Shown: piece after piece, positions 599-10,483 of the stretch
Numbering within the stretch: the stretch's first letter is position 1
Layout: each line of letters starts with the position of its first letter
From: Candidatus Halobeggiatoa sp. HSG11
GTDB lineage: Bacteria > Pseudomonadota > Gammaproteobacteria > Beggiatoales > Beggiatoaceae
Direction: 5' to 3'
Assembly: GCA_030378105.1 (NCBI GenBank)
Contig: JAUCGL010000032.1
Span: 1 to 36,532 of the forward strand
DNA length: 36,532 nucleotides
The notes under the pieces: generated by a model
Told to the model about the DNA's origin: nothing
Seen by the model: only the letters and a program-made list of their open reading frames with translations
Database searches by the model: none
Made by a program: the position numbers and the translations under genes

Positions 599-3500
599 TT
601 ATTTAGTTGGCTTCTTAGGCTGACATTCTGGTACTTTTTCAATTATTAAAACTGTACTGGACTCAACAATTTTTAAACAAGATTCAGCGACATCAGCCGG
701 AATAATATAATATTTACCGGGTTTATCTGGAAATTTAGCACTAAATGTCATGCCAACCTCAGCTTTAGGTAATTCTTTACAATATTCAACCTTTTCAAAT
801 ATTGCGGTACAAGTTTTAGCCTGATCTACAACTAGATTTGTTGAACTATCAGTACCATCACAACCATCTTGCCAACCAGTAAATATTGAATTTTCATCTG
901 GAGTAGCAGTTAGCATTATTTCAGTTCCATCAACATAATTACTGCTGCAATTGACTCCACAATCAATTTTATCAGCAACTATTTGCCCATTTCCATCACC
1001 AATTTTATTTACTTTTAACGGAAATTTAGCTTTAAAATTGGCTGTACAAGTTTTCGCTGTATTCATAGTTACAGTTATCACCGGATTATTACCGTTACAA
1101 TCTTGGGTCCAACCAATAAAAACTGAATTAGAATCGGGAGTTGCAATTAATTTCACCGATTTATTAATAGCATAAGACTCATTACAGTCCATTCCACAGT
1201 TAATATCCGCTACAACATTTTTTATCAATCCATTTCCGTTACCTGATTTAGTTACAGTCAAAGGGATTTTTACAGTAAATTTTGCGGTACAAGTTTTATC
1301 AGCATCCATAATCACAGTTGTTGAAGGATTATTATTAGCCGGCTTGATTACAACTGGTTTAGCATTATTTTCATCATTTCCAAATCCCCAAAAGTCTTTA
1401 AATTTACCTATAACAGTTTTATCTGATGATTGATTTTTCTGTGTATTTGTAGATTTATTTTTAATACAATCACCTTGCCAGCCAGAGAAAGTAGAGTTTT
1501 TATCTGGGGTAGCAATTAACGTAACAGTTGAACCATTATTATAAATTTCATTGCAATCCGTTCCACAATTAACACCCTGCGTGGTACTGTGAACTTTACC
1601 GTTACCAATTTTACCAATATTCAACTGAAAGCGTTTATCAAATATAGCAGTACAATTTTTATTAGCATCTATGGTTATGGTAGCGTTTTTATTGCCTTCG
1701 CAATCACCTTGCCAACCAGAGAAAGTAGAGTTTTTATCTGGGGTAGCAATTAACGTAACTGTTGAACCATTATTATAAATCTCTTTACAATCTGTTCCAC
1801 AATTAATACCCGGTATGGTACTGTGAACTTTACCGTTACCAATTTTACCAATATTCAATTGAAAGCGTTTATCAAATATAGCAGTACAGTTTTTATTAGC
1901 ATCTATGGTTATGGTTGCATTTTTATTGCCTTTACAGTCACCTTGCCAACCAGTGAAAGTAGAGTTTTTATCTGGGGTAGCAATTAACGTAACAGTTGAA
2001 CCATTATTATAAATCTCTTTACAATCCGTTCCACAATTAACACCAGGTGTAGTGCTGTGAACTTTACCGTTACCTATTTTACCAACATTCAACTGAAAGC
2101 GTTTATCAAATATTGCGGTACAGTTTTTATTAGCATCTATAGTTATGGTAGCGTTTTTATTGCCTTCACAATCACCTTGCCAGCCACCGAAAGTTGAGCT
2201 TTTATCAGGAGTAGCAATTAACGTAACAGTTGAACCATTATTATAAATTTCATTGCAATCCGTTCCACAATTAACACCCTGCGTGGTACTGTGAACTTTA
2301 CCGTTACCAATTTTACCAATATTCAACTGAAAGCGTTTATCAAATATAGCAGTACAGTTTTTATTAGCATCTATGGTTATGGTAGCGTTTTTATTGCCTT
2401 TACAGTCACCTTGCCAACCAGTGAAAGTAGAGTTTTTATCTGGGGTAGCAATTAACGTAATAGTTGAACCATTATTATAAATCTCTTTACAATCCGTTCC
2501 ACAATTAACACCAGGTGTAGTGCTGTGAACTTTACCGTTACCTATTTTACCAACATTCAACTGAAAGCGTTTATCAAATATTGCGGTACAGTTTTTATTT
2601 TTATCCATAATAACAACAATATTATTATCTCCACGACAATCACCTTGCCAATTCACGAAAGTAGAACCAACTTCTGGAGTAACAATTAACGTAACATCTG
2701 TACCATGAATATAGTCTTCTTTACAATCCAGATTGCAATCAATTCCCTCTGGAATGCTATTTATCTGTCCATGACCTTTTTTATTGACCTTTAATTGAAA
2801 CAGATTTTCAAATATTGCAATACAATTTTTATCAGCATTCATAGTTATAGTTGCATTTTCATTACCATAACAATCATCCTGCCAACCTATGAAAGTAGAG
2901 TTATTATTTGGAATAGCAATTAAAGTAACGCTGGAACCATTATCATAAAACTCATCACAATCTACTCCACAATTCACGCCCGGAATAGTGCTATGAACTT
3001 TACCATTACCAACTTTATCAATTGTTAATTGAGGTCGCTTTTCAAATATAGCAGTACAGTTTTTATTTGCATCCATTGTTACAATTATATTGTTATTTCC
3101 ACGACAATCACCTTGCCAGTTCACGAAAGTAGAACCAACTTCTGGAGTTACAATTAAAGTAACATCTGTGCCATCAGTATAACTTTCTTTACAATCTGTA
3201 TTACAATCAATCCCATCTGGAATACTGTTTACCTGTCCATGACCTTTCTTATTAACTGTTAATTCAAAATCAGAAGGCCCTCTTGCATCTGTCAACAAAA
3301 TATTGTCAAAATACGCATCACCAGCAATTCCACGAGCATATAAATAATCCTCTAACATTAATACAAAATCAGGAAAATCAGTTGCTGATAAATCAACTTT
3401 GTAATGATTCCACTTACCGTTATCTTTCAAAAACTTGTATTGGTCACCTCTATAAATAGAATAACTCTTTTTTGTACCACCTATCCATCTATGATTTGAA

Positions 3501-3856
3501 GGACCTGGTCCCGGATCAGTATTTCTGCTATAACCAATATAACCACCGTTACCCTCTCGACTTTTACGCACTGGCATACCGAGATAGTCAAATTCCAGTA
3601 TATAAGGTTTGTTAATCGGAAGATTGCTGATAATCGTTTTGGTGTAAATATCACCTTCAATAACTTTTTTGGTAAATGTAACCACCTTACCATGTCCACT
3701 ATTAAGCGGATCGTTTACAACTTTTGCAGTTGGAACAGAACCATTTTTTCCAGTCCAATTGTTTAAACCTGTTTCAAAATCATCAATAAACAGTGTTTCA
3801 GCATGAGAAAATGTGGCCCATAAAAATATGCTAATAGCTATACATAACTTATTCAT
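599..3856 (-). CDS. Secreted protein with ten InlB-like B-repeats
   Basis: 1085 residues. An N-terminal signal peptide (hydrophobic stretch about 4-17, likely cut after SHA-19) predicts export. Residues 20-196 form a domain that looks like a beta-sandwich or jelly roll, opening with DDFETGLNNW. Ten repeats of about 78 residues follow from residue 197, each with the pattern G-x-NCG-x-DC, then VTLIATP, STF-x-GWQGDC and CTAIF. This is the signature of the divergent InlB B-repeat (Flg_new_2-type) family; the conserved cysteines suggest a disulfide in each repeat. Repeat 8 (from residue 743) carries an insert of about 45 residues. A 55-residue cysteine-containing tail ends in PKKPTK; no LPXTG or PEP-CTERM anchor is visible. 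The start has a Shine-Dalgarno-like AGGA eight bases upstream. Such repeats act as spacer stalks in adhesins of other bacteria; the ligand here is unknown. Repeats 4-8 are almost identical in DNA. Confidence 0.85.
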   Translation of the reverse strand: MNKLCIAISIFLWATFSHAETLFIDDFETGLNNWTGKNGSVPTAKVVNDPLNSGHGKVVTFTKKVIEGDIYTKTIISNLPINKPYILEFDYLGMPVRKSREGNGGYIGYSRNTDPGPGPSNHRWIGGTKKSYSIYRGDQYKFLKDNGKWNHYKVDLSATDFPDFVLMLEDYLYARGIAGDAYFDNILLTDARGPSDFELTVNKKGHGQVNSIPDGIDCNTDCKESYTDGTDVTLIVTPEVGSTFVNWQGDCRGNNNIIVTMDANKNCTAIFEKRPQLTIDKVGNGKVHSTIPGVNCGVDCDEFYDNGSSVTLIAIPNNNSTFIGWQDDCYGNENATITMNADKNCIAIFENLFQLKVNKKGHGQINSIPEGIDCNLDCKEDYIHGTDVTLIVTPEVGSTFVNWQGDCRGDNNIVVIMDKNKNCTAIFDKRFQLNVGKIGNGKVHSTTPGVNCGTDCKEIYNNGSTITLIATPDKNSTFTGWQGDCKGNKNATITIDANKNCTAIFDKRFQLNIGKIGNGKVHSTTQGVNCGTDCNEIYNNGSTVTLIATPDKSSTFGGWQGDCEGNKNATITIDANKNCTAIFDKRFQLNVGKIGNGKVHSTTPGVNCGTDCKEIYNNGSTVTLIATPDKNSTFTGWQGDCKGNKNATITIDANKNCTAIFDKRFQLNIGKIGNGKVHSTIPGINCGTDCKEIYNNGSTVTLIATPDKNSTFSGWQGDCEGNKNATITIDANKNCTAIFDKRFQLNIGKIGNGKVHSTTQGVNCGTDCNEIYNNGSTVTLIATPDKNSTFSGWQGDCIKNKSTNTQKNQSSDKTVIGKFKDFWGFGNDENNAKPVVIKPANNNPSTTVIMDADKTCTAKFTVKIPLTVTKSGNGNGLIKNVVADINCGMDCNESYAINKSVKLIATPDSNSVFIGWTQDCNGNNPVITVTMNTAKTCTANFKAKFPLKVNKIGDGNGQIVADKIDCGVNCSSNYVDGTEIMLTATPDENSIFTGWQDGCDGTDSSTNLVVDQAKTCTAIFEKVEYCKELPKAEVGMTFSAKFPDKPGKYYIIPADVAESCLKIVESSTVLIIEKVPECQPKKPTK
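1450..2566 (-). repeat. Near-identical 234-bp tandem repeats in a coding region
   Basis: Encodes repeats 4 to 8 of the secreted protein. The period is 234 bp (78 codons). Two higher-order copies can be seen: the block around 1571 recurs at 2273 (offset 702, three units) and the block around 2039 recurs at 2507 (offset 468, two units). This patchwork suggests unequal crossing-over or gene conversion. Confidence 0.85.
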
Positions 3857-4203: not shown

Positions 4204-5155
4204 TAGTAACATTCCTATATTTTCACACCATTAAAATTAATTATATTTTGAAAAATAAAATCTATTGTTTCGATAAGTGAATCAAATTTATGACGAAATT
4301 GCTTAATATAACGTTATAACTGAATCCTATTTGTGTTCAATTGGATTGAGTTCTGGTGAATATGCAGCATAACAATCAATAAATAACATCCAGCTTCTCC
4401 AATCAGAGATTCGGTTTCAATTGACTTGTGGAAAGAAGCATTATCCATAATAATTATTTGTCCTGATATAAATAGCTGGTAATAAACATTCTTCAAGATA
4501 AACAGCAAAATAAATCAGCATTCATAGTACCTTCATACATTGCGTGGAGCAATAATTGTATGCCCATTCAATGCTGCAACTATATTAATATTTTTTTCAC
4601 GTTTTCTCTTGCAACACCCGAATACTTTTTCTCCTTGTAGGAGCCCAACCATAATCTCGAATAATAGATAAGGCTTAATACCAGATTCATCAAGATATAT
4701 ACATTCATTTTTATCAACTAAATCAAATTTTTGATTGTATTTTTCTACTTCAAGTTCATCTTGTTCCTTATAACGAAATGTTTTTTTGCAGCTAATGCCA
4801 AGTTTGGCTAGTGCTTCACGTAATCGCTGATTGCGTCACATCAAATGTTTGTGCATATTCATGTTGAAACCAGTCTGGATGTTCCGATACTTGTTTCTTC
4901 AAAGTTGCCAAATTTATCTTTGTTGGTTGTTTACCCAAAATTGGTTTGGGGAAAAATCCCCCTGTTTCTTTAAATCTTTTCACCCATTCTTTCATTGTGT
5001 TGTACTGTATATCGAATATTGTAGCTTGCACTTCTCATACTATTTTTTTCTTCAATAACGAAATCTATTGCACGTTTTCTGAAATCTATATTATAACCCA
5101 TATATTTACCTATAATTTGTTTTTATGATGTGTTTTTATAAGAATGTTACTATAA
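4201..5155 (-). mobile_element. Degenerate IS630-family insertion sequence
   Basis: The element is bounded by perfect 14-bp inverted repeats, TTATAGTAACATTC at 4201-4214 and GAATGTTACTATAA at 5142-5155. They contain TA dinucleotides, in keeping with the TA target of the IS630/Tc1-mariner group. The only gene inside is a broken transposase. Confidence 0.75.
4217..5101 (-). pseudogene. IS630-family transposase, frameshifted
   Basis: Read on the minus strand from ATG 5101: MGYNIDFRKRAIDFVIEE, a frameshift near 5030, then a helix-turn-helix segment (YNTMKEWVKRFKETG; about 4816-5031). In other frames follow YLDESG (first catalytic Asp, about 4690), IIMDNASFHKS (second Asp, about 4440) and YSPELNPIEH (Glu, about 4340). 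These are the DDE motifs of IS630 transposases. Several frameshifts and stops break it, so it is not expected to be active. The intact terminal repeats could still be moved by a relative elsewhere in the genome. Confidence 0.8.
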
Positions 5156-7090: not shown

Positions 7091-9754
7091 CTACTTCTTA
7101 CCTTTTTTGCCTTTTGGAGCTGGTGCTGGTTCAGAAGAACTAGCTACTGGAGCTGGGCAACTAGCAGGACGTATAATCTTTGCTGTATCACCATTTTTAC
7201 CAGTTGAAGAAGTATTATTGGATACGTTCAAGTGAACTTGTACATCTCCATCCTCAAGTGGGAAAGAAGCTTCATAACCAATAGCTCTACCAGTGTTATC
7301 TTCAACCCATGAGAAGTTTGAATCGCCACCTTTAACAACTTTATTACTATTACCGCCAATAGTTACCCAAGCATCATCATTACTTTTTTCTGCTTGATAA
7401 GGAGAGTTTTCTAATACAAGAACATACATGGTATTAGTTGCACAGTCATAGCGTGAATACAAGTCAGACAAATTAACTTTACCGTTACCAGCACAGTTTC
7501 CATCTGAACCAACGCTACCAGCAGTACACATATTAGCAGATAAGTCTGCATTTAAATCCCATTCTGCAACATCACCATCAACTGTAGCAGAACCTTCACT
7601 TGGATTAATTTGAGCAACATAATCTGTATCTTCAGCTACTGGAGCTTCAGGTTCAGGAGTCACTTCAGGTTCAGGAGTCACTTCAGGTTCAGGAGTCACT
7701 TCAGGTTCAGGAGTCACTTCTGGTTCAGGAGTCACTTCTGGTTCAGGAGTCACTTCTGGTTCAGGAGTTACTTCTGGTTCTGGACAAGATTGTGTATCCA
7801 TAGGAGCTGGTAAAGTATTTACCATAGCAATACCATCATTAATACATTCGGTAAATACATATGATACAAAATCACCTTCCATATCAGCAGTTTTAGTGAA
7901 ACTAAATCCAAAAGTATATTTACCAGTTTGTCCCGGTAAATCAAGTCCCATATTTGTTAATTCTGTTCCAGTCAAACGAGTGTAATCATCACCGGCAACC
8001 TTATTTCCAGAATCAATTTCTTGTGGAACACTACGTGATGCTGTCCAACTAAAGTAATCATTACGGATAGGTAAATCACCTAAGTTACCACGGTTGTATT
8101 TCTTAAATTTAGACCAACCAGAATTCTTCTTAGTAACATCTTTGAATTTTGTTACTTCATATAAACCAACACCAGCGTTAGCTCCAGAATCATTATCAGG
8201 TGCAAAGTGAACCGCATACTTAGTACCATTGAAGTCAAATACATAGTCAGTGAAGTTAACATTTTCTCCCTTATACATCAGAGGGTCTTCTGGACTCATA
8301 TTTGAGTTAATAGCCACAGTTATTGTATCACCATCTAGCTTAACAGCAGTGCTATAAATTTCTAGCTTCGAATTACCAGTTGCATCACCAACATAATCTT
8401 TAGCGTATAACCAATCACTGGTTGGTTCTTCAACTTCGCATTCTTCAGGCTCTGGTTCAGGTTCAGGTTCTGGCTCTGGTTCAGGCTCAGGTTCAGGCTC
8501 TGGTTCAGGCTCTGGCTCTGGTTCTGGTTCAGGCTCTGGCTCAGGTTCTGGCTCAACTTCCTCGACTGCACCACAGAATTGGATATTAGAAATATCTGGT
8601 ACATTACCACCACCATTAACTGGAATACTTGTATTAGCAAATGCTTCACCTTGAGCAGAGCTAGGTGCATAACTACCAGTATTAGTACCACCTTTCAAAA
8701 TAACATAACTAATATCAGCAGTTGTTGTACTCCAAGTTCCGCCAGTTGCATCGCCAGTTATCGTAATAGTATCATTATTAGCTTCAGGTTTTTCAAATAC
8801 ATAACTACTACCATTCCATTCAAATTTAGCTATTAAATTACTATCATCAGGACAGGAAGAAATTTGTGGAGGAGGTGATGGTGGAACTGTATCATCAACA
8901 CAAGCAGCAACAGCTTCTATATCAGTATATGGTCTAATATTGCTACCATCTATATTAGAAACTATTTCAGTATCTATATCTAATTCATATAATTGTGATG
9001 AACCATCTACTATTAACAATAATGTTCCATCATTATTAGGAAGCATTTCAACAGTTTCAACATTACCGCCTAATCCTTTACCACCTAATGGACCTACAAT
9101 TGCACCATCAACAGGAGTATAGACATAAACCTTATCTCCATTGGCATAATAAATACTTTTGCCATCATCACTCCACGAAAGGTCTTCAATAGTAGAAGTA
9201 TATCTTTGCCGTTTTTTTGGAGTATCATTTGCCATACAAGCAACAAAATCATCAGTAGAATATGGCATTTCTAAAGTAGAATTAGCTGGATCAGCAGCAT
9301 TAACTCTAACTAATCCGCATTCTTCTGACCAAGCCCATAAACTGTCATTAGTTGGATTAAATGAAAGAGCAGATACTTCAGTACCACATGATTTAGTACC
9401 TCTTACATCAAAACAAATATCACCAATAGCTTGAACTGAACCATCAGCAGTACTTATCTTATAAAGATGACCAGCTGGAAATCCACTTGGATCATCGCCC
9501 GAAGAACCATAAAGTTCATGAGCAGCATTCATATCCAAACCTTCAATATCATGGCCTGAATGCATTGGACCTAATGGCGTAACTGCATATGTATTACGAT
9601 CAATTGTGACGAATTGGGAATCATTTAAACCTTCATCATGAACACCATAAATAACATTACAGTCCGCAAAAGCATTCATAGCGGCAGTCATACTACCAAC
9701 TACTAAACATTTAAGTATTGCTTCTTGTAAAGGATTTCTTGATAATTTACGCAT
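7091..9754 (-). CDS. Secreted acidic protein with Pro-Glu repeats
   Basis: 887 residues from the chosen start. An in-frame ATG lies nine codons upstream (9781), but the ATG at 9754 has AAGGAG eight bases before it and opens a normal signal peptide (MRKLSRN, hydrophobic core, cut after NAFA). The first 280 residues look like a beta-propeller-type fold (repeated LYKISTADGSVQAIG, LSWSDDGKSIYYANG units). A beta-rich segment follows, then a long run of Glu-Pro dipeptides (8444-8560), a cysteine-flanked domain of about 200 residues (SDWLYAKDYVGDATG onward), seven TPEPEV units (about 7640-7780), a C-terminal domain that may bind carbohydrate (VDGDVAEWDLNADLSANM) and a basic end, KGKKGKK. Likely exported or cell-surface; function unknown. 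The Glu-Pro runs are probably stiff linkers between domains. No sortase or PEP-CTERM anchor is visible. Confidence 0.8.
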   Translation of the reverse strand: MRKLSRNPLQEAILKCLVVGSMTAAMNAFADCNVIYGVHDEGLNDSQFVTIDRNTYAVTPLGPMHSGHDIEGLDMNAAHELYGSSGDDPSGFPAGHLYKISTADGSVQAIGDICFDVRGTKSCGTEVSALSFNPTNDSLWAWSEECGLVRVNAADPANSTLEMPYSTDDFVACMANDTPKKRQRYTSTIEDLSWSDDGKSIYYANGDKVYVYTPVDGAIVGPLGGKGLGGNVETVEMLPNNDGTLLLIVDGSSQLYELDIDTEIVSNIDGSNIRPYTDIEAVAACVDDTVPPSPPPQISSCPDDSNLIAKFEWNGSSYVFEKPEANNDTITITGDATGGTWSTTTADISYVILKGGTNTGSYAPSSAQGEAFANTSIPVNGGGNVPDISNIQFCGAVEEVEPEPEPEPEPEPEPEPEPEPEPEPEPEPEPEPEPEPEECEVEEPTSDWLYAKDYVGDATGNSKLEIYSTAVKLDGDTITVAINSNMSPEDPLMYKGENVNFTDYVFDFNGTKYAVHFAPDNDSGANAGVGLYEVTKFKDVTKKNSGWSKFKKYNRGNLGDLPIRNDYFSWTASRSVPQEIDSGNKVAGDDYTRLTGTELTNMGLDLPGQTGKYTFGFSFTKTADMEGDFVSYVFTECINDGIAMVNTLPAPMDTQSCPEPEVTPEPEVTPEPEVTPEPEVTPEPEVTPEPEVTPEPEVTPEPEAPVAEDTDYVAQINPSEGSATVDGDVAEWDLNADLSANMCTAGSVGSDGNCAGNGKVNLSDLYSRYDCATNTMYVLVLENSPYQAEKSNDDAWVTIGGNSNKVVKGGDSNFSWVEDNTGRAIGYEASFPLEDGDVQVHLNVSNNTSSTGKNGDTAKIIRPASCPAPVASSSEPAPAPKGKKGKK
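7640..7785 (-). repeat. 18-bp tandem repeats encoding TPEPEV
   Basis: Seven copies of an 18-bp unit (ACTTCAGGTTCAGGAGTC on the plus strand, with C/T changes) encode V-T-P-E-P-E. They lie inside the coding region and join two folded domains. Copy number is likely to vary between strains by slippage. Confidence 0.85.
8444..8560 (-). repeat. Hexanucleotide repeats encoding Glu-Pro
   Basis: A run of GGTTCA, GGCTCA, GGTTCT and GGCTCT units on the plus strand encodes a continuous stretch of about twenty Glu-Pro dipeptides on the minus strand. The synonymous variation between units shows it is not a fresh expansion. It makes a stiff, strongly acidic linker. Confidence 0.85.
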
Positions 9755-10125
9755 TTTATTTACTCCTTTTGACTTATTCAAATTTTTTAAACAAAAACTT
9801 AATATCTGAGTATTCAGATTATTAATATAAATTAATTATGTGACTAGCTATATACATTAAAATTTTAAAAATTAAAACTATTTTAGTTGTAATATGCTAA
9901 ATTCATGCCAATTTTACATAATTGATTTTATTTGATATTTAAATAATAATTTCGCAAATTACAACTTTAATTACAATTTCAATTTGCAAAAGAAAAATGC
10001 TGAAGATAAAAATATTACCATTCAGCATTTTTGATATGTATTATAGAAATATAATTCGTTAAGGAACTGTGAGCAAAAGGATATAAATATTATCAGTGGA
10101 GTAGGTTTTAAGTAGGGGGTAGTTC
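9755..10125. other. Intergenic region with hairpins
   Basis: Upstream region of the acidic repeat protein. It contains a hairpin GCAAATT...AATTTGC (about 9955-9987) and a 12-bp hairpin AAAAATGCTGAA...TTCAGCATTTTT (9993-10004 with 10021-10032) that could terminate transcription coming from either side. No gene was found. Confidence 0.5.
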
Positions 10126-10393
10126 TAGCCTGTCGAAAAACAGCTTTTATTCTGTCTTAAAATTTCCCGTTTTGTGATTTTTAAAGTACCATAGGTTTCA
10201 CCTATGGCTATTCATGTTTCACCCCTTCGGGGTTGTTCAAATCCTGAAAGGATTAAATGTGAATAGCCACCGATGAAATCGGTGGAATATATTAAGTCCC
10301 ACCATAACTTTCAATTTTCAACTTTCAATTGTTTGCTATCCATAAATTGGGATACAAAAATTAGTCAAAATAGCTGTTTTTCGACAGGCTAGG
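10124..10393. mobile_element. MITE-like element G with structured core
   Basis: Perfect 20-bp terminal inverted repeats (TAGCCTGTCGAAAAACAGCT at 10126-10145; its complement at 10372-10391) bound about 266 bp without coding capacity. The outermost TA on each side could be a duplicated TA target, as in IS630/Tc1-mariner derivatives. The core (10189-10285) is predicted to fold into several hairpins and is listed separately. Confidence 0.75.
10189..10285 (+). ncRNA. Structured core of element G, cloverleaf-like
   Basis: Four hairpins plus a closing stem follow one another: CCATAGG-TTTCA-CCTATGG (10189-10207); a closing stem CTATTCA (10208-10214) with TGAATAG (10260-10266) enclosing CCCC-TTC-GGGG (10222-10232) and AATCCT-GAA-AGGATT (10240-10254); then CCACCGAT-GAA-ATCGGTGG (10267-10285). 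Three of the loops are GAA or TTC. Whether it acts as RNA, as DNA cruciform or as a transposition signal is unknown; transcription is not shown by the sequence. Confidence 0.45.
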
Positions 10394-10483
10394 GTAGTCC
10401 TGCAATATGTAGTGTTAAACCTACTAGTTTTTTGAAACCTAGTAGTTTTTTTGGAGTAGCCACTACTTTCTATAGGACTACCC
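10392..10483. repeat. MITE-like element family F, copy 2
   Basis: A 92-bp element with 10-bp perfect terminal inverted repeats GGGTAGTCCT and AGGACTACCC and an inner palindrome (ACTAGTTTTTTGAAACCTAGTAGT). It abuts the right end of element G. Its homologue is at 323-410. A GGGTAGTTCTA string directly left of G (about 10115-10127) resembles the start of F1, so G may have entered an F-type element. Confidence 0.7.

Follow-up and report, generated by a model that had tools for sequence, protein, structure and literature searches.

Repetitive extragenic palindromic (REP) sequences and REP doublets forming hairpins (REPINs) are known together with REP-associated tyrosine transposases (RAYTs or TnpA_REP; Bertels and Rainey, 2011, PMC3116915), a system also described as the REPtron (Quentin et al., 2018, PMC6006769). 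The same classification recognizes TnpA_Y1 subclass 1.2, which comprises short IS200-related Y1 proteins with the signature Y---Q--HH and a conserved C-terminal extension; they are described as low in copy number, lacking insertion sequence (IS) properties and, as a rule, devoid of the typical IS200 ends (Quentin et al., 2018, PMC6006769). Here we consider an element at positions 10125–10392 of a 36,532-nt stretch of Candidatus Halobeggiatoa sp. HSG11 (contig JAUCGL010000032.1, hereafter the window), in which a 97-nt multi-hairpin core lies within a miniature inverted-repeat transposable element (MITE). With a probability of roughly 0.8, the locus is read as a nested pair of mobile elements, where a REPIN-like, IS200/IS605-related core has lost its transposase and now rides within unrelated MITEs.

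The core resembles a REPIN in being an inverted hairpin pair of about 100 nt that forms a longer hairpin and has numerous intergenic copies, as well as in its link to a low-copy Y1 gene flanked by repeats, the tandem clusters beside that gene and the lack of a visible target duplication. Unlike in REPINs, the core-flanked transposase carries Y---Q--HH instead of the Y---NP of RAYTs, the foot of the fifth hairpin reads ATAG instead of 5′ GT[AG]G with no GTAG anywhere in the core, additional inner hairpins are present, and copies travel in DDE-type MITEs. Because the RAYT enzyme and the GTAG tag, two defining features, are lacking, the core is not filed as a REPIN, and REPIN-like, subclass 1.2-associated element is the most fitting name. 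The core-flanked genes are assigned to subclass 1.2 by signature and share with it the HUH motif, the short IS200-related protein, the C-terminal extension and the low copy number; compared with the published members, they occur in large sulfur bacteria and lie between paired hairpins that also have dispersed copies. An HUH/Y1 enzyme, hairpins at the ends and the lack of a target duplication are also found in IS200/IS605 elements and their non-autonomous derivatives, from which the core differs in that its ends are an inverted pair, not two different direct-strand ends, and that the linked gene is low-copy and does not move as an IS. The outer part matches DDE-type MITEs in its terminal inverted repeats (TIRs), target duplication, lack of a gene and high copy number, whereas it encloses another, unrelated mobile element common to several shell families. 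Within the same bacterial family, abundant palindromic MITEs have been reported in Ca. Thiomargarita nelsonii, one of which, in hupL, has a 10-bp direct repeat and a 19-bp inverted repeat; the portions of that report consulted propose no Y1 link, and its MITEs are compared with the shells and core discussed below by description only (Flood et al., 2016, PMC4853749).

One core in several shells

Two unrelated MITE shells carry the same core in the window genome, type A (CCTGTCGAAAAACAGC ends), which is the shell of the window's own element, and type B (AGACATCTTTCCTAAATAA ends; 127 TIR copies), and chimeras with a left end of type A and a right end of type B are also present. A third shell, type C (CTGATGTKACGCA ends), holds the core in Thiotrichaceae GMC7, where it is also found empty or with other inner modules, and type C-like arms are nested within type B shells. 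The composite is mobile and modular, and the shells differ in their target duplications: 3 bp (ANT) in 23 of 30 type B cases and 7–8 bp in 21 of 27 type C cases, compared with a weak TA/CTAG signal for type A based on seven copies only (flanks CTAG/CTAG, CTAG/CTAC, CTAT/CTAG, CTAG/CTAT, ATAG/CTAG, CTAA/CTAG, and AAAG/CTAG). Shell B can be likened, by its target only, to the ISL2 group of IS5 (ANT, 3-bp target). The TA ends raised the suspicion of an IS630/Tc1 parent of shell B, but this shell duplicates 3 bp (ANT) and the DDE_3 genes located close to TIR B have different ends, so that such a parent was discarded; among the DDE_3 genes scanned, no shell end coincides with the end of a DDE_3-carrying element. 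The parents of the shells were not found in the fragmented window-genome draft.

This draft (5.2 Mb, 326 contigs, 99.99% complete) yielded 90 full-length cores, 81 of which are directly followed by AATA, a shell sequence. From about 190–230 candidates, at least 45 scored matches to the element and at least 40 to the core were obtained, and all copy counts given here are minima; the element recurs beyond chance. Four loci (L062, L105, L103, and L350 in the window genome, G000) have type B shells with another inner palindrome, GTAGGGTGGGTAG...AACCCACC, beside or instead of the core, and shell B thus seems to accept several modules. At L023:398-558 (G000:C140), the inner and outer hairpins of a core point in opposite directions, as would result from a flip across the stem arms; the inversion of the inner half against the outer arms is real and may reflect recombination.

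In relatives, the core also stands alone. Free copies with constant ends AGTTCC...GGAACT and unrelated neighbors are found in Thioploca CSMAG_545, Parabeggiatoa and others; among 30 cores of Thioploca CSMAG_545, AGTT precedes 22 and AACT follows 22. In 21 free copies from three genomes, the flanks are devoid of a target duplication, with direct repeats averaging 1.0 vs. 0.75 when dealt anew. The host is a large sulfur bacterium of the Beggiatoaceae type, congeneric with Thioploca sp. CSMAG_545. Exact matches to the core pattern in named genomes are confined to large sulfur bacteria (Thiotrichaceae GMC7, Ca. Parabeggiatoa HSG14, Thioploca CSMAG_545, Thiomargarita RS_2_10, and an unclassified Guaymas gammaproteobacterium), a search that may leave out the window genome's own records. 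The covariance-model search suggested by a first-pass annotation of the window, which had been made from the sequence letters, recovers the core in 11 of 57 relatives and in none of 21 genomes of other families.

In the window, the type A shell is bounded by the inverted arms 10125–10148 and 10369–10392, which form a 24-nt pairing interrupted by one mismatch and perfect over the outermost 21 bp; the first-pass annotation had recognized MITE-like ends and described them as perfect 20-bp repeats. CTAG at 10125–10128, repeated at 10389–10392, is a probable target duplication with TA as its constant part, and the true TIR starts with CCTGTCG if this holds. The left TIR (10129–10148; 23 left ends in the genome at ≤3 mismatches) continues into a left arm (10149–10188) ending in TTTTTAAAGTA, which is kept in type A copies such as L002, L003, L004, and L058. 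A right arm (10286–10368) starting with AATATATTAAGTCCCACCATAACTTTCAA, also kept in type A copies, leads to the right TIR (10369–10388); TIRs, arms and the hairpins between them are given on the plus strand. The core itself (10189–10285) is an inverted pair of hairpin-bearing ends. In the DNA fold, hairpin 1 (10189–10207, CCATAGGT-TTC-ACCTATGG) is followed by the long stem2, whose 5′ arm CTATTCATGTTT (10208–10219, with GGCTATTCA almost unvarying between genomes) and 3′ arm AAATGTGAATAG (10255–10266) enclose hairpin 3 (10221–10233, ACCCC-TTC-GGGGT) and hairpin 4 (10240–10254, AATCCT-GAA-AGGATT), and hairpin 5 (10267–10285, CCACCGAT-GAA-ATCGGTGG) is immediately preceded by ATAG.

This DNA fold (z −7.1, no shuffle equally good) reproduces exactly the 97-bp, five-stem cloverleaf proposed earlier, whose loops are indeed GAA or TTC, although four of them (TTC, TTC, GAA, and GAA) instead of three. 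Folded as RNA, the core reaches −45.4 kcal/mol (z −7.3, 0 of 200 shuffles equally good) and the parameters fuse hairpins 3 and 4 into a single longer stem; the whole element reaches z −9.8. Given these values and scores of copies, the early impression of an unusually ordered core within a MITE is borne out. Both strands of the core fold alike and the whole core is an imperfect palindrome. Since the RNAalifold consensus favors the whole-core palindrome over the cloverleaf, the cloverleaf stems were tested directly for their substitution pattern.

Y1 genes flanked by the core

The analysis of Y1 (HUH) genes covered the window genome and five relatives that carry the core. The core-flanked genes encode a 148-aa HUH protein with the motifs DHIHI and YIKNQEEHH (Y---Q--HH), in which H54, H56, Y114, Q118, H121, and H122 are invariant among eight sequences. 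The protein matches Pfam Y1_Tnp PF01797 at 83–85 bits (cut-off 23) and NCBIfam IS200/IS605 NF033573 at 65 bits (cut-off 55), stays below the cut-off of 80 for REP_Tyr_transpos NF047646 (29.5 bits), and distantly matches solved HUH transposases, including ISHp608 TnpA. The gene of Ca. Parabeggiatoa HSG14 is bordered by three cores in tandem and, on its opposite side, by a decayed core; in Thiotrichaceae GMC7, a decayed core lies upstream of the gene and three copies follow downstream. The Thioploca CSMAG_545 gene lies between two half-cores and is broken by a frameshift and a deletion. Half-cores on both sides also flank a 90% identical Y1 gene in relative G012, and the sole strong core match of relative G013 is located about 260 bp from a 38% identical Y1 gene. 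Among Y1 loci with a recognizable motif, a core match is found at five of ten Y---Q--HH loci as opposed to none of 13 others (p 0.007), an association with a specific Y1 gene. One core-flanked Y1 gene, intact or decayed, was found per genome, which does not correspond to a multicopy insertion sequence. The window genome has lost the gene: its 326-contig draft contains no close Y1 homolog, the best match being a 32% identical remnant. A Y1 fragment beside a core in this genome (C27) is an unrelated IS200 remnant, next to which a type B MITE has landed.

Hairpins accompany the Y---Q--HH genes more widely. All 12 with a readable open reading frame (ORF) have a strong hairpin (≥7 bp) within 300 bp, mostly on both sides and often as the same hairpin inverted. 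A phylum-wide search of 398 genomes found only three further subclass 1.2 genes, all with paired flanking hairpins, and similarly built hairpin elements are scattered through three further genomes (55 and 67 matches in two of these and 11 in the third). A subclass 1.2 gene with flanking hairpins is perhaps a general system. Subclass 1.2-like genes of other Gammaproteobacteria (L264, L265, L267, L279, L285, L387, L388, and L389) each have flanking hairpins like CCCAGGGCAACGCCCTGGG or CCTAGGGTAA..TTACCCTAGG, and copies of these are dispersed in G013, G018, and G007.

Class 2 RAYT-type genes (Y---NP) are present as well, at L044 (G000:C107), L046 (G000:C105), and L256 (G002:C236), each with its own palindrome, such as GCCAAATTAAAATTTGGACTCC in L044. 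Judged by these palindromes, one genus may harbor several independent REP systems. As the source of the core, the RAYT genes of the window genome were ruled out by their own palindromes.

Stem mutations and competing explanations

The first-pass annotation had proposed selection for RNA or DNA structure, perhaps in a mobile structured RNA. The evidence supports constraint and mobility, not the RNA nature. Between genomes, stems change as compensatory units (72 cells in G002 and 144 in G059): the stem of hairpin 1 is swapped in relatives to CCACCGAT/ATCGGTGG, CCTTATG/CATAAGG or CCACAGA/TCTGTGG. A compensatory change is also seen in hairpin 4, where AATCC/GGATT becomes AACCC/GGGTT. Within the window genome, uncompensated changes prevail; stem cells comprise 2829 unchanged, 29 compensatory, 70 G-U, 73 A-C, and 61 other pairs, i.e., 204 non-Watson-Crick vs. 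29 compensatory, and the copies thus break their stems in the very way that had been named as evidence against function. G-U is no more common than A-C (70 vs. 73, p 0.87), which argues against selection on the RNA strand. Private substitutions, scored per site in 48 type B copies, are even across stems (1.17%), unpaired core (1.18%) and shell (1.27%, p 0.75), indicating that inserted copies drift neutrally. All variants taken together, the values are 2.4, 7.0, and 10.4%, respectively. Since common variants avoid the stems and private ones do not, the constraint acts on the propagating lineage and not on each site. Such a constraint on replicating copies fits a cis-acting transposition structure, as expected for a mobile element's own ends.

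These data bear on an alternative where the core is a functional structured RNA, regulatory or mobile, which is spread by the MITE while selection on the transcript maintains its stems. The strong fold, the compensatory changes between genomes and the avoidance of stems by shared variants would all agree with such an RNA. Nevertheless, it is very unlikely, as the stems are freely struck by private mutations, the expected tolerance of G-U is absent (70 G-U vs. 73 A-C), the fold is equally good as DNA and on either strand, and the core tracks a transposase gene; in addition, the window contains no tRNA and no Rfam match, the best below-threshold match being irrelevant. Similarly small is the chance that the core is a host 3′-end element, a transcription terminator or mRNA stabilizer kept at many loci, and we consider this the least probable of all explanations. 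Its appeal lies in the position of the copies: in a rough ORF scan of the window genome, on which these counts depend, 60 of 60 cores lie outside long ORFs, and the surrounding ORFs are convergent in 15 and co-directional in 14 cases and divergent in none. Purifying selection against insertions in genes or promoters gives the same pattern, and stems are not depleted in private mutations.

Two further alternatives concern the mode of mobility. Most copies in the window genome lie within shells and the whole core is an imperfect palindrome, as if it were just the inside of a normal DDE-transposon MITE, owing its fold to the palindromic nature of MITEs and never moving by itself. This is as improbable as a structured RNA and already contradicted by the occurrence of the same core in three unrelated shells with differing target duplications, by shells without the core, and by relatives in which the core is free-standing and located beside a Y1 gene. 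Slightly more doubtful still is a true REP or REPIN moved by the class 2 RAYTs of these genomes. RAYT-type genes do occur in the window genome and its relatives, and the doublet architecture resembles a REPIN (PMC3116915); yet these genes are flanked by different palindromes of their own, e.g., AGACCTACTAGG..CCTAGTAGGTCT, none of the 13 Y1 loci outside subclass 1.2 has a core match, and the core has no GTAG tag.

We therefore favor the nested pair of mobile elements, for which the following mechanism is proposed. The inner core would consist of two inverted, hairpin-bearing ends that fold once DNA becomes single-stranded. The 148-aa HUH/Y1 transposase of the IS200/IS605 superfamily would have recognized these hairpins and, by nicking and religating single-stranded DNA, inserted the core with no target duplication; core-flanked Y1 genes and free copies without target duplication point to such a single-stranded-DNA transposition substrate. 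By the same route, cores may have entered at least three unrelated shells, A (TA/CTAG), B (3-bp ANT) and C (7–8 bp), the outer part being a DDE-type MITE presumably moved by DDE transposases. Nearly all surviving full copies of the window genome reside in A or B shells, with C-derived arms nested in B, which suggests that the core now multiplies as a passenger of whichever transposases move these shells, and after insertion the copies probably decay neutrally.

Several points weigh against this reading. Transposition, binding and cleavage of the core by the Y1 protein are predicted from sequence; NCBIfam places that protein in IS200/IS605 and not among REP-associated transposases; and the layout of a putative autonomous element varies, the gene lying beside cores in L250 and L232 but inside a core in L251. 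About nine of the 90 window-genome cores have no clear shell. The analysis recovered no true empty site for any free-standing core, and the lack of target duplication is therefore judged from flanks only. Sequencing error could add evenly to private variants and weaken the comparison of stems with unpaired core and shell. Finally, because the draft consists of 326 contigs with repeats collapsed at their ends, an intact transposase or a shell parent could be missing from it.

Neighboring features and the role of subclass 1.2

A second, unrelated palindrome abuts the MITE at 10392–10483 (GGGTAGTCC...GGACTACCC, inner AAACCTACTAG/CTAGTAG), and its inner part resembles AGACCTACTAGG..CCTAGTAGGTCT, which flanks the RAYT-type gene of L046 elsewhere in the genome. 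On the other side, an 896-aa ORF on the minus strand (7091–9781) adjoins the MITE and has low-complexity repeats, PARP-like matches and weak DUF4394 matches. Also on the minus strand, the window contains a 1085-aa ORF with ten InlB B-repeat domains (599–3856) and the remnant of a decayed DDE_3 (IS630-type) transposase with two in-frame TGA stops (4389–4700).

Subclass 1.2 was separated in 2018 as a group of IS200 relatives without IS properties, the substrate of which was not known. In the open-access literature, a search by sequence words for a published description returned chance matches in unrelated papers only, and judged from this literature, no description seems to exist of REPIN-like elements linked to subclass 1.2. 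The core-flanked subclass 1.2 genes, together with hairpin elements of the same plan filling genomes, provide a testable enzyme-substrate pair. On balance, we lean toward a broader interpretation, in which subclass 1.2 Y1 proteins would be the transposases of a REPIN-like system of their own, apart from RAYT/REP and with large dispersed multi-hairpin populations, whose elements may outlive a lost transposase by switching, repeatedly and independently, to unrelated DDE MITEs. The contrast between private and shared mutations offers a simple test to separate transposition-level constraint from host-level RNA function in structured repeats, and the window genome represents a natural case in which an element without its own transposase persists through vehicle switching.
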